Source: Pseudomonas sp. S06B 330
GTDB lineage: Bacteria > Pseudomonadota > Gammaproteobacteria > Pseudomonadales > Pseudomonadaceae
DNA length: 64,000 nucleotides
Direction: 5' to 3'
Assembly (NCBI RefSeq): GCF_002845275.2
Contig: NZ_CP088149.1
Location: forward strand, 62,001 to 126,000
The position numbers and the translations under genes were made by a program. The notes under the pieces were generated by a model. That model did no database searches and was not told where the DNA came from. It saw nothing but the letters and a program-made list of their open reading frames with translations. This document shows, piece after piece, positions 13,325 through 62,107 of this stretch; the stretch's first letter is position 1, and each line of letters begins with the position of its first letter.

Positions 13325-14749
13325 ATGTCCGCTGCTGCATCGTTCCGCGTCGAAAAAGACCTGCTTGGCACCCTTGAAGTCCCAGCTGATGCCTACTACG
13401 GCATCCAGACCCTGCGCGCTGCCAACAACTTCCACCTCTCCGGTGTGCCGCTGTCGCATTACCCTAAATTGGTTGTGGCCCTGGCCATGGTCAAACAGGC
13501 TGCTGCCGACGCCAACCGTGAGCTGGGTCACCTGAGCGATGCCAAGCACGCCGCCATCAGCGAGGCTTGCGCCCGTCTGATTCGCGGTGACTACCACGAG
13601 CAGTTCGTGGTCGACATGATTCAAGGCGGTGCTGGTACTTCTACCAACATGAACGCCAACGAAGTGATCGCCAACATCGCGCTGGAGGCCATGGGCCACC
13701 AGAAAGGCGAGTACAAGTACCTGCACCCGAACAACGACGTAAACATGGCGCAGTCGACCAACGACGCCTACCCAACGGCGATCCGCCTGGGTCTGCTGCT
13801 CGGTCACGACGCCCTGCTGGCCAGCCTCGACAGCCTGATTCAGGCCTTCGCTGCCAAAGGCAAGGAATTCGACCACGTACTGAAGATGGGCCGTACCCAG
13901 CTGCAGGATGCCGTGCCGATGACCCTGGGCCAGGAATTCCGCGCCTTCGCCACCACCATGACCGAAGACCTGCAGCGCTTGCGCTCGCTGGCTCCGGAAC
14001 TGCTGACCGAAATCAACTTGGGTGGTACCGCCATCGGCACCGGCATCAACGCCGACCCTGGCTACCAGGCCCTGGCCGTACAGCGTCTGGCGACCATCAG
14101 CGGCCAGCCGCTGGTACCAGCTGCCGACCTGATTGAAGCCACCTCGGACATGGGCGCTTTCGTCCTGTTCTCGGGCATGCTCAAGCGTACTGCGGTCAAA
14201 CTGTCGAAGATCTGTAATGACCTGCGCCTGCTGTCCAGCGGCCCACGTACCGGCATCAACGAGATCAACCTGCCAGCGCGTCAGCCAGGCAGCTCGATCA
14301 TGCCAGGCAAGGTCAACCCGGTCATTCCGGAAGCAGTCAACCAAGTGGCCTTCGCCATCATGGGTAACGACCTGGCCCTGACCGTCGCTGCCGAAGGCGG
14401 TCAACTGCAACTGAACGTGATGGAGCCGCTGATCGCTTACAAGATCTTCGACTCGATCCGCCTGCTGCAGCGCGCCATGGACATGCTGCGCGAGCACTGC
14501 ATCGTCGGCATCACCGCCAACGAACAGCGCTGCCGTGAACTGGTCGAACACTCGATCGGCCTGGTCACCGCCCTGAACCCTTACATCGGCTACGAAAACG
14601 CCACCCGTATCGCCGCCATCGCCCTGGAAAGTGGCCGTGGTGTGCTGGAACTGGTTCGCGAGGAAGGCCTGCTGGACGAAGAGATGCTCAACGACATCCT
14701 GCGTCCGGAAAACATGATTGCTCCGCGTCTGGTTCCGCTCAAAGCGTAA
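13325..14749 (+). CDS. aspA: Aspartate ammonia-lyase
   Basis: Converts L-aspartate to fumarate and ammonia. The 474-residue product belongs to the fumarase/aspartase superfamily: the signature GSSIMPGKVNPVIPE (about residues 319-333) contains the mobile catalytic serine loop, and GGAGTSTNMNANEVIAN and STNDAYPTAIRL are substrate-site segments. The LNPYIGYENATRIA end favours aspartase over fumarase. I chose the ATG at 13325 (MSAAASFRVEKDLLG); an ATG at 13313 would add four residues. A terminator follows. An asparaginase that makes its substrate lies 1 kb downstream. Confidence 0.95.
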   Translation: MSAAASFRVEKDLLGTLEVPADAYYGIQTLRAANNFHLSGVPLSHYPKLVVALAMVKQAAADANRELGHLSDAKHAAISEACARLIRGDYHEQFVVDMIQGGAGTSTNMNANEVIANIALEAMGHQKGEYKYLHPNNDVNMAQSTNDAYPTAIRLGLLLGHDALLASLDSLIQAFAAKGKEFDHVLKMGRTQLQDAVPMTLGQEFRAFATTMTEDLQRLRSLAPELLTEINLGGTAIGTGINADPGYQALAVQRLATISGQPLVPAADLIEATSDMGAFVLFSGMLKRTAVKLSKICNDLRLLSSGPRTGINEINLPARQPGSSIMPGKVNPVIPEAVNQVAFAIMGNDLALTVAAEGGQLQLNVMEPLIAYKIFDSIRLLQRAMDMLREHCIVGITANEQRCRELVEHSIGLVTALNPYIGYENATRIAAIALESGRGVLELVREEGLLDEEMLNDILRPENMIAPRLVPLKA

Positions 14750-14804
14750 CCGATGCTGTAAAACGCTCACCAGGTCGAGGGACTAGACACCTCTCACCTT
14801 TTGA

Positions 14805-14839
14805 GGGCCCAGGGATCACTCCCCGGGCCCTTTTTTTTT
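14805..14839 (+). terminator. Terminator of aspA
   Basis: Arms GGGCCC-A-GGGA and TCCC-C-GGGCCC with a 4-nt loop, followed by nine T residues. A strong intrinsic terminator 55 bp after the aspA stop. Confidence 0.95.
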
Positions 14840-14862
14840 GCGCCATCAGCGGCAGCACTTGC

Positions 14863-15002
14863 TGTAGCCGCTGCCGAGGTACGAGGCTGCGATCGACTGC
14901 AGAGCAGTCGCAACTCGGGCACCTCGTTGGACCTGGCGAATCGCGGTGACCTGGTCTTGCGGCCGTTTCACGCCCGATCGCAGCCTCACGGCAGCGGCTA
15001 CA
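14863..15002. repeat. REP-type inverted pair (BIME-like)
   Basis: TGTAGCCGCTGCCG ... AGGCTGCGATCG at 14863-14895 is repeated in inverse orientation as CGATCGCAGCCT ... CGGCAGCGGCTACA at 14975-15002. About 80 bp lie between the arms, including the small palindrome CGACTGCAGAGCAGTCG. Paired inverted REP units of this type are scattered through Pseudomonas intergenic regions, and the element lies between a terminator and the next leader. Confidence 0.75.
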
Positions 15003-15059
15003 AGAGGCCAGTTCAGACAGTTGCTCCCCCGGCCCCACAAAAAGCAGCGACAAATCGCG

Positions 15060-15356
15060 AGACTGTAGGTGTTTTCTGTAGGACCGTTCTGAATCATACT
15101 TTCGGCGCCGTTGCTCTGTTGTACCAGGCCCTTCATGGGCCTAGGCTGCTGCCGTCGTTGGAAAATCCAACGATCGGATTTAGCAGTCCGGAACATTCAT
15201 ATGAGGTCGACGGCACACCGCTGAAATGGCGGTTGTACGTGGGGCGCCTTCGGGTGCGCCGGGTTCCTCTGTGACCGGTCTGCTAACCCGCGTACAGCTG
15301 CCACCCTTCGTTTAGCAGCGAAGTCTGGTTGCTTCACTTTTACATAGAGGCTAACC
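15060..15356 (+). promoter_or_regulatory. Long structured leader of the DUF6124 gene
   Basis: About 300 bp without an open frame. It contains successive hairpins: AGGCCC/GGGCCT (15126-15142), CGTTGGA-AAA-TCCAACG (15156-15172), and a GC hairpin with a UUCG loop (about 15243-15260, GGCGCC TTCG GGTGCGCC). A motif-like stretch (about 15274-15306) then leads to the GAGG Shine-Dalgarno at 15346-15349. CATACT near 15096 with TTTTCT 17 bp upstream is a possible promoter. The density of folds suggests a functional leader RNA; this is inference. Confidence 0.5.
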
Positions 15357-15659
15357 ATGAAAAAGATCGTCCCCGATCCACCCATTCTCGACCTTTCTCA
15401 CGCAACCACCGCCAACACTCCGTTCGGCACCAACCTCATGTTCAACGTCCGCGAAGGCATACCCGCCGAAGAAGCTTTGCTTCACGCTTGCCAACTGCTG
15501 CGTTGTGCCGAAGCCACGGTGAGCGATGCGCTTGATCATCTCACGCACAACGACCGCTCCCTCGTCTCGGGTGCCGGCCAGCATATCGAGGCGGCGCATG
15601 CGCTGATCGATGCAGTGCTTGATGGCGTTGGTGTGCAACGGATCTTCACTCCCCATTAA
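15357..15659 (+). CDS. DUF6124 (DUF3077-like) small protein
   Basis: A 100-residue cytoplasmic protein, MKKIVPDPPILDLS at the start, with the family-type central segment MFNVREGIPAEEALLHACQLLRCAEATV (about residues 28-55) and a C-terminal helical part. Several copies of this Pseudomonas-specific family usually occur per genome, as I remember it; no function is established. The ATG at 15357 follows GAGG with 7-bp spacing. Its unusually long folded leader is the main oddity. No signal peptide or membrane segment. Confidence 0.85.
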   Translation: MKKIVPDPPILDLSHATTANTPFGTNLMFNVREGIPAEEALLHACQLLRCAEATVSDALDHLTHNDRSLVSGAGQHIEAAHALIDAVLDGVGVQRIFTPH

Positions 15660-15674
15660 CCGTACCGCTGTTTC

Positions 15675-15700
15675 TGTGGGAGCTGGCCTTGCCTGCGATG
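15675..15700 (+). repeat. REP-like unit
   Basis: A 26-bp unit starting TGTGGGAGCTGGCC and ending CTGCGATG. It matches the unit at 50970-50995 at 24 of 26 positions. It lies between the DUF6124 gene and the asparaginase gene. Confidence 0.6.
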
Positions 15701-15798
15701 CAAACACCGCGCAATAGCTGACACCGCAACGCTGACAGCCTCACCACTGATGACGTAGTGTGGCTAGCCAAACCTTGGCCGACCCACGGAGACAGCAC

Positions 15799-16791
15799 AT
15801 GGCAACCGCACACCCCGCTCGCAACATTATGGTGTTGTACACCGGTGGCACCATCGGCATGCAAGCCAGCGCCAATGGCCTGACACCGGCTTCAGGCTTC
15901 GAGCAGCGGATGCGCGAGCAACTGACCGGGCTGGCTGCACTACCACAGTGGCAATTTCGTGAAATGCAGCCGCTGATCGACAGCGCCAATATGACGCCCC
16001 AGTACTGGCAGCGCCTGCACCAGGCAATCCTCGACGCCGTCGATGTCCAAGGCTGCGATGCGGTATTGGTCCTGCACGGCACCGACACCCTGGCCTACAG
16101 TGCCGCCGCCATGAGCTTCCAGCTCCTTGGCTTGCAGGCACCTGTGCTGTTCACAGGCTCCATGCTGCCAGCCGGTGTTACCGACAGTGATGCCTGGGAG
16201 AACCTTGCCGGCGCCTTGCAGGCATTGGCCCAAGGCCTGGCGCCTGGCGTGCAGCTGTATTTTCACGGCGAACTGCTCGAACCCAATCGCACCGCCAAGG
16301 TGCGCAGCTTCGGTCGGCACCCTTTCGTCACGCTCAAGCGCTTCGGTGGTGCACCCCGGGTGAAGGTGCTGCCAAAAGAGCTCGACTATCGACAGGTAAG
16401 ACAGCCCGCGACAGTCGCGGTACTGCCATTGGTACCAGGCTTCGGCGCCGCACTCTTGCGAGCCGCGCTCGACAGCGGTGCCCAAGGTTTGATCCTGGAA
16501 TGTTTTGGCAACGGTACCGGCCCCGCGGATAACGCAGACTTTCTCAACGCCCTGGCCCAGGCGCAAGCAAAGGGCATCGTGGTGGTAGCGATCACCCAAT
16601 GCCACGAAGGTGGGGTCGAGCTGGATGTCTACGAAGCTGGCAGTCGCCTACGGCAGGTCGGCGTGTTGTCGGGTGGCGGCATGACCCGCGAAGCAGCGTT
16701 CGGCAAATTGCAGCTACTGCTCGGGGCAGGCTTGCCAACCGAAGAAGTGCGCCACCTGATTGAACTGGACCTCTGTGGAGAGCTGCGCTGA
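15799..16791 (+). CDS. ansA: L-asparaginase, cytoplasmic type
   Basis: Hydrolyses asparagine to aspartate and ammonia. The 330-residue protein has the first catalytic threonine in YTGGTIGMQ (residues 13-21) and the second in LHGTDTLAYSAAAMSF (about residues 90-105), plus TGSMLPAGVTDSDAWEN. There is no signal peptide, so a cytoplasmic enzyme. I chose the ATG at 15799 because GGAG lies 7 bp upstream; the first in-frame TTG-type starts are less well placed. Its product aspartate is the substrate of AspA nearby. An AraC regulator follows on the same strand. Confidence 0.9.
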   Translation: MATAHPARNIMVLYTGGTIGMQASANGLTPASGFEQRMREQLTGLAALPQWQFREMQPLIDSANMTPQYWQRLHQAILDAVDVQGCDAVLVLHGTDTLAYSAAAMSFQLLGLQAPVLFTGSMLPAGVTDSDAWENLAGALQALAQGLAPGVQLYFHGELLEPNRTAKVRSFGRHPFVTLKRFGGAPRVKVLPKELDYRQVRQPATVAVLPLVPGFGAALLRAALDSGAQGLILECFGNGTGPADNADFLNALAQAQAKGIVVVAITQCHEGGVELDVYEAGSRLRQVGVLSGGGMTREAAFGKLQLLLGAGLPTEEVRHLIELDLCGELR

Positions 16792-61150: not shown

Positions 61151-62107
61151 TCAGCGATGCCGTTTGAAGGTGGCCGACGGCAGCTCGCCGAAGCGTTGGC
61201 GATAGCTCTCGGCAAAGCGCCCCAGGTGCAAAAATCCGTAGTCCAGAGCGATCTCGGTGACGTTGCGCACCGAGCTTGCCGGGTCCTGCAAGGCAGCATG
61301 AATCCGCTCAAGCTTGCGCTGGCGCACATAGCCCTTGGGTGACAAGCCGGCATGCCGTTCGAACAAGGTGTACAGGGAACGCTCACTGACCCGCGCCACA
61401 TTCATCAGTTGCGCAACACTGATGTCCTGCTCCAGATGGGCATCGATGTAGGCCGCCAACTGTTCAAACGAATGGGTTTGCTGCACAGGTTCAGCACGCT
61501 GCACGTTGTTGCCCAGCAAACTGAGCAGCTTGCTGGCAACGATGCGTCCGTAATGCTCCTGTACCTGCAGCAGCGAGTCAGTAGATTCCGCCTCTGCGCA
61601 GATCAACCCGAGCAGGCCGATAAACCCTTCCAGCTCCCCGGTGACATGACGCGCACGGCTGAAGCGAATGCCGCCATCGGGCAACTGCCAGCGCTGCTCC
61701 AGGCAAGCCTGCTCCAACAAGTTGACCGGCAGCTTGAGGATGAACTTCTCGCAGTCGGCAGAATACGTCAGGTCTACCGGATCGTCCGGGTTGATCAGCA
61801 GTAGTTCTCCGGGCACGTAGTGATGCTCGTCGCCACGACAGCTGGACCGGCAATGGCCCTTGAGCAGAATCTGCAGGTGATACAGGGTACCTAGCGCGGG
61901 CGAAGTAATCCGTGCCTTGCCACCGTAACTGAGGCGGCACAGATCCAGGCTGGCAAATTTTCGGTGATTGATGCTCGCCTGCAGGTCGCCAGTCCTGGGC
62001 AAGCTCAGGCTATGACCACCGACATGCTGATTCACATACTCGGACACGGCATAAGGGTCGGCGCGCTGAAACACACAACTACGCTCGCTCAACAGGTGGC
62101 TGCTCAT
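61151..62107 (-). CDS. Second BenR-like AraC/XylS-family regulator
   Basis: A 318-residue paralogue of BenR: identical length, the same N-terminal pattern (ERSCVFQRADPYAVSEYVNQHVGGHSLSLPRTGDL), the same sensor core LLLINPDDPVDLTYSADCEKFILKLPVNLLE and HTH (VARVSERSLYTLFERHAGLSPKGYVRQRKLERIHAAL, ALDYGFLHLGRFAESYRQRFGELPSATFKRHR). I estimate about 60% identity by eye. It is the gene directly before benK, as BenR is before benA. Probably it activates benK-benF with an aromatic acid as effector; whether benzoate or another is unknown. Confidence 0.88.
   Translation of the reverse strand: MSSHLLSERSCVFQRADPYAVSEYVNQHVGGHSLSLPRTGDLQASINHRKFASLDLCRLSYGGKARITSPALGTLYHLQILLKGHCRSSCRGDEHHYVPGELLLINPDDPVDLTYSADCEKFILKLPVNLLEQACLEQRWQLPDGGIRFSRARHVTGELEGFIGLLGLICAEAESTDSLLQVQEHYGRIVASKLLSLLGNNVQRAEPVQQTHSFEQLAAYIDAHLEQDISVAQLMNVARVSERSLYTLFERHAGLSPKGYVRQRKLERIHAALQDPASSVRNVTEIALDYGFLHLGRFAESYRQRFGELPSATFKRHR

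Follow-up and report, generated by a model that had tools for sequence, protein, structure and literature searches.

The window, the whole stretch of 64,000 nucleotides analysed from Pseudomonas sp. S06B 330 (contig NZ_CP088149.1, forward-strand positions 62,001 to 126,000), contains a gene for a 100-aa DUF6124 protein between genes for a fumarase/aspartase-type lyase and an asparaginase, the latter of which follows the DUF6124 gene. The protein scores above the cut-off for both DUF6124 (PF19619; 43.8 bits, cut-off 27) and DUF3077 (26.2 bits, cut-off 21), in agreement with the family assignment made in a previous reading of the locus from its letters (hereafter, the sequence-only reading). At curated cut-offs, an Rfam scan of the entire 64-kb window returned one match only, a C4 antisense RNA in the leader of this gene (cut-off 45 bits). 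The parts of the locus are as follows, with the lettering taken from P1, in which a' is the 7-nt junction of C4 and b' is the loop of a C4 hairpin.

14849..15025, no strand: REP-type inverted repeat pair, intergenic and outside the module
15033..15661, + strand: block in common with paralogue L006 (promoter region, leader and DUF6124 gene), 89.5% identical over 630 columns, the similarity stopping at these ends
15119..15147, + strand: probable promoter, TTGTAC (15119-15124), 17 nt, TAGGCT (15142-15147), a pattern conserved across loci
15141..15194, + strand: c4-a1b1-like element of two hairpins, the second with a1 in its loop (RF03163, 45.7 bits, E 4.1e-10)
15179..15186, + strand: a1, TTTAGCAG, upstream copy of the target of junction a'
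15222..15308, + strand: C4 antisense RNA (RF01695, 83.7 bits, E 5.7e-15, model positions 1-87 of 87)
15227..15303, + strand: C4 stem of 17 bp (15227-15243 with 15287-15303), enclosing the UUCG hairpin 15244-15257 and the hairpin 15258-15279
15263..15274, + strand: b', GTTCCTCTGTGA, 12-nt loop of C4 and its predicted anti-Shine-Dalgarno address
15280..15286, + strand: a', CTGCTAA, 7-nt junction and predicted second address of C4
15312..15318, + strand: a2, TTAGCAG, predicted target that pairs 7/7 with a' and is predicted to lie inside a hairpin 3' of C4
15342..15350, + strand: b2, ACATAGAGG, predicted target containing the Shine-Dalgarno sequence AGAGG; duplex with b' -16.2 kcal/mol
15357..15659, + strand: DUF6124 gene, 100 aa, MKKIVPDPP...

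The leader from 15152 to 15356 folds at -87.5 kcal/mol, and 200 dinucleotide shuffles of it fold at -66.95 ± 4.62 kcal/mol (z -4.45; none of the 200 was as stable), which bears out the earlier description of a structured leader. The UUCG-loop hairpin and the good ribosome site described in that reading were both recovered, the former carried on the 17-bp stem of C4 and the latter as AGAGG ahead of the ATG at 15357, and so was the REP pair in front of the leader, which has at least nine further near copies (87-93% identity) in this genome among the matches listed. Of the proposed leader of about 300 bp, the structure holds and the length does not carry over to the transcript, which probably has a leader of about 205 nt starting from the weak promoter at 15119-15147. 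The view that the region has no open frame was incorrect in that ORFs of 157 aa on the forward strand and of 116 and 62 aa on the reverse strand, among others, overlap it; none of them has support as a gene. The idea of a new leader class is ruled out by the RF01695 match over the cut-off and the RF03163 match just under it. The latter, found in a permissive scan of positions 14700-15800, reaches 45.7 of the required 46.7 bits and, therefore, the upstream element resembles c4-a1b1 and is not counted as a curated member. Similarly, the match to isrK (RF01394) at 15154-15236, over the a1b1 hairpins, reaches 23.9 bits at a cut-off of 50. The distances from C4 to a2 and to the DUF6124 start codon are 3 and 48 nt, respectively, and the upstream b1 is weak (-10.9 vs -16.2 kcal/mol for b2).

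When the window was scanned strictly for sigma-70 promoters, none was found, and by this standard the hexamers at 15119-15147 are poor; hence, the promoter assignment depends on conservation. The pattern TT[GC]N3-N16-18-TAN3T is present upstream in 161 of 172 loci, compared to 17% of sequences with shuffled mononucleotides. An a1 preceded by the pattern at 10-50 nt is present in 144 loci, and the two are 28-34 nt apart there (31 nt in 76 loci).

Several lines of evidence link the two unpaired parts of C4 to sites around the ribosome-binding site downstream in the same locus. They come from 172 loci, of which 168 are in register (L068, L111, L153 and L175 were dropped) and 162 also have an ORF by the test used (this leaves out L030, L049, L056, L058, L075 and L099); from genome G049, 50 of 55 C4 matches were analysed, the five weakest being left out. 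First, in 151 of 168 loci, all seven positions of a' can pair, G-U included, with a 7-mer located in the 22 nt that follow C4 (149 loci with Watson-Crick pairs alone). These pairings are spread over 34 distinct a' sequences, 43 being present in all 168 loci, and comprise 16/16 loci of this genome, 37/49 of G049, 26/28 of other genomes and 72/75 of the named loci. With swapped partners, the rate is 11.0%, and 4.1% for partner loci that differ in a'. Among the 17 loci with less than 7/7 pairing, 12 belong to the 49 of G049 and several appear mis-set in register. Second, in 56% of 162 loci, a helix of 9 bp or longer can be formed between b' and the Shine-Dalgarno region of the same locus, vs 4.3% with swapped partners; the median span is -16 to -6. 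Third, by the computed energies of a and b summed, the locus's own target is the best one in 15 of 16 cases in this genome and in 36 of 50 in G049, where it is among the top three in 47 of 50; across the 94 loci first analysed, the number is 60 only, because addresses recur between genomes. Fourth, 18 of the 27 predicted C4 pairs show double changes in 49 chosen sequences. Thus, as the comparison of own and swapped partners shows, loop and junction both have complementary sites in the ribosome-binding region downstream, and C4 stems and loop-target pairs both covary, as a check for compensating changes proposed together with the sequence-only reading had asked.

The upstream sites are less specific than the downstream ones. 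In 100 of 162 loci, a1 matches the locus's own junction a' 7/7 (8.0% with swapped partners of different junction), and over the same 162 loci b1 fits its own C4 less well than a1 does. The own upstream region is the best one in just 7 of 16 loci of this genome, 9 of 50 of G049 and 10 of the 94 first analysed. An alternative fold, in which the 3' arm of C4 pairs with a downstream repeat, showed no locus specificity (at least 7 bp in 46% of own vs 42% of swapped combinations). With C4 ends placed by Infernal, 89 of 94 loci have ACC right behind the stem; the corresponding 154 of 162 obtained by the register is partly so by construction because the register pattern requires a 3' CC.

C4 cassettes are abundant in this genome and its genus. 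The 5.64-Mb genome consists of one contig, on which 16 matches to C4, all of them over the cut-off, and 17 to a1b1 were found; of the a1b1 matches, 16 are immediately upstream of a C4 and 8 exceed the RF03163 cut-off. All 16 C4s are followed after 44-54 nt by a small ORF of 74-113 aa starting with M(x)K(I/P/S)VPDPP; a search with PF19619 alone gave 10 genes, 9 of them adjoining a C4. In a genus sample of 59 genomes, this one included, 54 have C4 (53 over the cut-off) and five have no match, with at least 1,002 copies in total and up to at least 54 per genome; DUF6124 gave 689 matches and is present in 47 of the 59, and the two counts per genome are correlated (Spearman rho 0.88, 59 genomes). 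Across the class, C4 was found in 18 of 274 genomes, this one among them, the other 17 having 1-6 copies each. The counts per genome in both surveys are lower bounds, with scoring limited to 61 candidates per genome in the genus and 15 in the class; for this genome, the class survey gives at least 15 C4s vs 16 in its own scan. Fourteen control genomes gave zero C4 matches. Eighty named relatives of the window protein (79 from Pseudomonas records, one from a Pantoea sp. Ap-967 record) were compared, and the genes of 78 have a C4 no more than 200 nt ahead of them. In G049, C4 is directly upstream of 35 of 41 DUF6124 matches, the other six being without one even in a scan at E 10. Similar leaders were, thus, found ahead of other DUF6124 genes, and of the suggested sRNA-bearing regulatory leader that accompanies the family and may form a class of its own, the first part holds and the second gives way to RF01695. 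The record titled Pantoea sp. Ap-967 holds its cassette (L126) amid Pseudomonas records, and the genome of that record is possibly misnamed. In one genome of the class, 1.5 Mb in size, four C4 matches follow one another within 1.4 kb (G319:C9:1700-3092).

The leader also precedes genes for proteins other than DUF6124, i.e., DUF3077 proteins, Bro-N antirepressors and 52-aa proteins. Among 84 C4-linked proteins scanned against Pfam at E 0.01, rather than at the gathering cut-off, 50 matched DUF6124, 12 DUF3077 and 5 Bro-N; the 84 are part of 88 proteins from the first 94 loci, with the short L035, L051, L060 and L104 omitted. Both Bro-N proteins tested match PHROG antirepressor families, and one of them, L088, has the N-terminal TPNPP motif found in many DUF6124 proteins. 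This N-terminal VPDPP/TPNPP motif (15369-15383 in the window, and in many loci) is common to C4-linked proteins that are otherwise unlike, DUF6124 proteins and one Bro-N protein. The tested member of the 52-aa family had no match. In the model of the window protein (mean pLDDT 84), two short strands are combined with two long helices; the DUF6124 fold gave no match at E ≤0.001 in the PDB and in viral models, and the sequence gave weak matches only in the PDB (best E 0.029). Two DUF6124 genes that lack C4, L019 in this genome and L213 in G049, are divergent from a gene for a CI/LexA-like repressor (HTH_3 and Peptidase_S24). There are hints, and no more than hints, in these sequences that DUF6124 may act on phage-type repressors. 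Some of the genes behind C4 look damaged: short ORFs follow C4 in L035, L051, L060, L104 and L115, and in L113 and L115, C4 is present and the DUF6124 gene is apparently frameshifted, the lengths of the tblastn matches not being multiples of three. One decayed cassette in this genome (L207, G000:C1:4924582-4924638) has lost the 5' half of C4, and its DUF6124-like gene is frameshifted. In a paper on DUF3077, a P. putida DUF3077 pseudogene is described as having regained its frame in evolved strains.

Within a genome, the b' loops all differ, both in this genome (16/16) and in G049 (50/50 as placed by Infernal; 49/49 in register). This is the case even for near-identical paralogues, in which unlike loops come with matching ribosome sites: the coding DNA of L012 and L015 is 99% identical, that of L001 and L007 97%, and that of L004, which is the locus in the window, and L006 94%. 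At a protein identity of at least 0.9, none of 19 same-genome pairs has b' in common and 16% could cross-pair over at least 8 bp; for the 29 pairs from different genomes, b' is common to 45% and 66% could cross-pair in this way. These pairs are not independent, and 15 of the 19 same-genome pairs are from G049, in which some loci are poorly in register. The C4 stem is also less similar in the same-genome pairs (identity 0.82 vs 0.94), and conversion of the coding part or differences in age can contribute to the divergence of the loops. Moreover, at a protein identity below 0.8, same-genome and cross-genome pairs are nearly alike. Selection for separate addresses among paralogues is, therefore, suggested rather than proven by this comparison.

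In genome G015, the DNA corresponding to 14842-15729, i.e., the REP pair and the cassette, is absent, the lyase terminator being directly followed by the asparaginase leader. Because of this gap and the stretch in common with L006, promoter, leader and gene appear to move together, as a block of about 600-700 bp, between intergenic places; in other pairs of paralogues, the block ends differ, giving stretches that are somewhat shorter or longer. A prophage origin of the window copy was considered and rejected on the basis of its lyase and asparaginase flanks and the empty site in G015. Viral contigs carry C4 cassettes, too. A search for an exact 18-mer from the C4 stem hit 66 such contigs; together with one contig from the DUF6124 profile, there were 67, of which 66 gave 69 C4 matches. 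In the 66 of these C4s that are in register with enough sequence, a2 pairs 7/7 in 64 and an ORF follows by the test in 48, and the cassettes carry the same kinds of gene as the chromosomal ones. Some of these contigs may contain host flanks. The window's DUF6124 protein had no tblastn match in phage and plasmid records, the DUF6124 profile found one locus in the viral contigs, through one short pattern, and the Bro-N protein L036 was not found in them.

A close known counterpart of the locus is immI (c4-icd-ant) of phages P1 and P7, in which promoter, a1, b1, C4, a2, b2 and small ORF follow in the same order as in the window (P1 background in PMC8546580 and PMC12197685). The P1 record annotates a1, b1, a C4 of 77 nt, a2 starting 3 nt past C4, b2, and icd with its start 50 nt past C4, so that the spacing from C4 to a2 is the same as in the window and that to the start codon is 50 vs 48 nt. 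Both C4s have two antisense elements, in both loci b2 lies at the ribosome site, and four loci of this genome have the P1 junction a', CTGTCAA. Unlike immI, the window cassette is outside a prophage and is one of many individually addressed copies per genome, and its target is DUF6124 or a small relative rather than icd-ant: the C4 of the window is followed by DUF6124 and then asparaginase, and ant-like Bro-N domains were found in 5 of the 84 C4-linked proteins. RNase P reportedly cleaves the pre-C4 RNA of P1/P7 (Hartmann 1995). The ACC behind the C4 stem is similar to the RCCA end that PMC12710915 names for substrates of RNase P. The CI RNA of phage P4, with seqA and seqC, is likewise a processed antisense RNA with complementary sites on both sides in the same transcript (cited in PMC4825925); P4 differs in that it works via transcription termination.

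We consider it very likely that the locus is a self-silencing C4 cassette in which C4 blocks translation of the gene on its own transcript and in which the addresses of paralogues are kept apart. We suggest that a single transcript, starting from the promoter at about 15119-15147, would comprise a1b1, C4 and the DUF6124 message. The C4 domain would fold into the 17-bp stem that presents the two antisense elements and would probably be freed by processing, possibly by RNase P as in P1; the ACC behind the stem (89/94) is consistent with such a release. C4 would then pair with its own transcript and with further copies of it, a' with a2 and b' with b2 in the Shine-Dalgarno region, thereby blocking ribosome binding, and the gene would stay off until C4 is titrated or lost, with the upstream a1b1 copy as the likely titrator. 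What the analysis shows is membership of the C4 family, the architecture, the covariation and, by computed energies, the preference within a genome; transcription, processing and titration are inferred, as is repression by C4, to which architecture and covariation point. Speaking against this reading are the 17 loci with incomplete pairing of a' and a2, the preference for the own target in no more than 60 of the 94 loci first analysed, the low specificity of the upstream sites, the short or apparently frameshifted genes behind some C4s (e.g., L035, L060, L104, L113 and L115) and the poor promoter hexamers. Because each cassette has its own b', its C4 should silence its own gene and not the paralogues.

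Type I toxin-antitoxin families also comprise paralogue-specific antisense RNAs and several orthogonal pairs of RNA and small protein per genome. It is conceivable, though on balance unlikely, that DUF6124 and its kin are harmful and C4 is an RNA antitoxin, the loss of which, e.g., upon phage attack, frees them; such a function would be compatible with a self-silencing cassette. The numerous orthogonal pairs of antisense RNA and small protein per genome fit this idea, as do the fact that the C4 of P1 guards Icd, an inhibitor of cell division according to the P1 record, and the broken gene of L207, the one cassette seen in this genome without an intact C4. However, apparently broken genes are found behind intact C4s as well (e.g., L113 and L115), so that a single broken pair proves little, C4 is missing ahead of six of the 41 DUF6124 matches of G049, and, unlike in type I systems, the antisense RNA is encoded on the same strand and in the same transcript as the gene.

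We regard as still less probable a circuit that is mainly activating, in which a short a1b1 RNA ending ahead of C4 would act like IsrK, either by binding C4 or by refolding the long RNA. The isrK-orf45-anrP locus of Gifsy-1 (isrK; STnc1160) resembles the window in its a1b1-like leader hairpins, stable processed RNA region and small ORF; it is a prophage locus and its outcome is net activation by a short RNA, as described in PMC4825925. Because the Gifsy-1 locus ends in activation, the net sign could differ here from the repression that we propose. The upstream repeat of the a' target in 100 of 162 loci and the weak isrK match would be expected of such a circuit, and a terminator-like hairpin with a T-run separates a1b1 from C4 in 22 of 172 loci (e.g., L001, L007 and L014) vs 1 of 172 when shuffled. 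By contrast, the same terminator test was negative in 150 of 172 loci, the window among them, and the preference of loops for their targets is much stronger downstream than upstream.

That the cassettes are relics, i.e., C4 loci left inactive by prophages and spread by chance, we hold to be very improbable. The copies on viral contigs, the decayed cassette in this genome and the short or frameshifted genes in the C4-bearing L035, L060, L104, L113 and L115 could be read in this way, but pairing has been kept across 34 junction sequences and the stems through double changes, and 40 of the 41 DUF6124 matches of G049, three of which are partial, have no internal stop. A metabolite- or protein-binding leader in which the C4-like fold is reused as an aptamer is scarcely credible despite the highly stable conserved stem with its UUCG tetraloop, because the Rfam match and the loop-target covariation set it aside together with the new class, and the unpaired parts, expected to be conserved in an aptamer, are those that vary most, jointly with the ribosome-binding site.

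C4 and c4-a1b1 were listed in 2010, with Proteobacteria and phages (PMC2864571). In the literature on C4/RF01695, c4-a1b1 and DUF3077/DUF6124, as far as titles and the beginnings of abstracts go, C4 is not tied to DUF6124 and no expansion is described; the supplements of PMC2864571 might mention Pseudomonas. Thus, the class is known, and its expansion with privately addressed pairs of C4 and gene appears to be new. Tentatively, and as one possible account among several, we suggest that Pseudomonas has made a phage lysogeny switch into a chromosomal family, in which tens of small genes per genome (DUF6124, DUF3077, Bro-N and others) would each be silenced by their own C4, with selection separating the addresses so that genes can be released singly; the stock of C4s could also silence matching operons of incoming phages. 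With the proposed cassette, the large and uncharacterised DUF6124 family gains a testable mechanism of control and a link to phage antirepressor biology. The dozens of natural antisense-target pairs per cell offer material on how RNA specificity evolves after gene duplication. Altogether, these findings suggest that control by C4, as known from phages, has grown into a system at the scale of the host.
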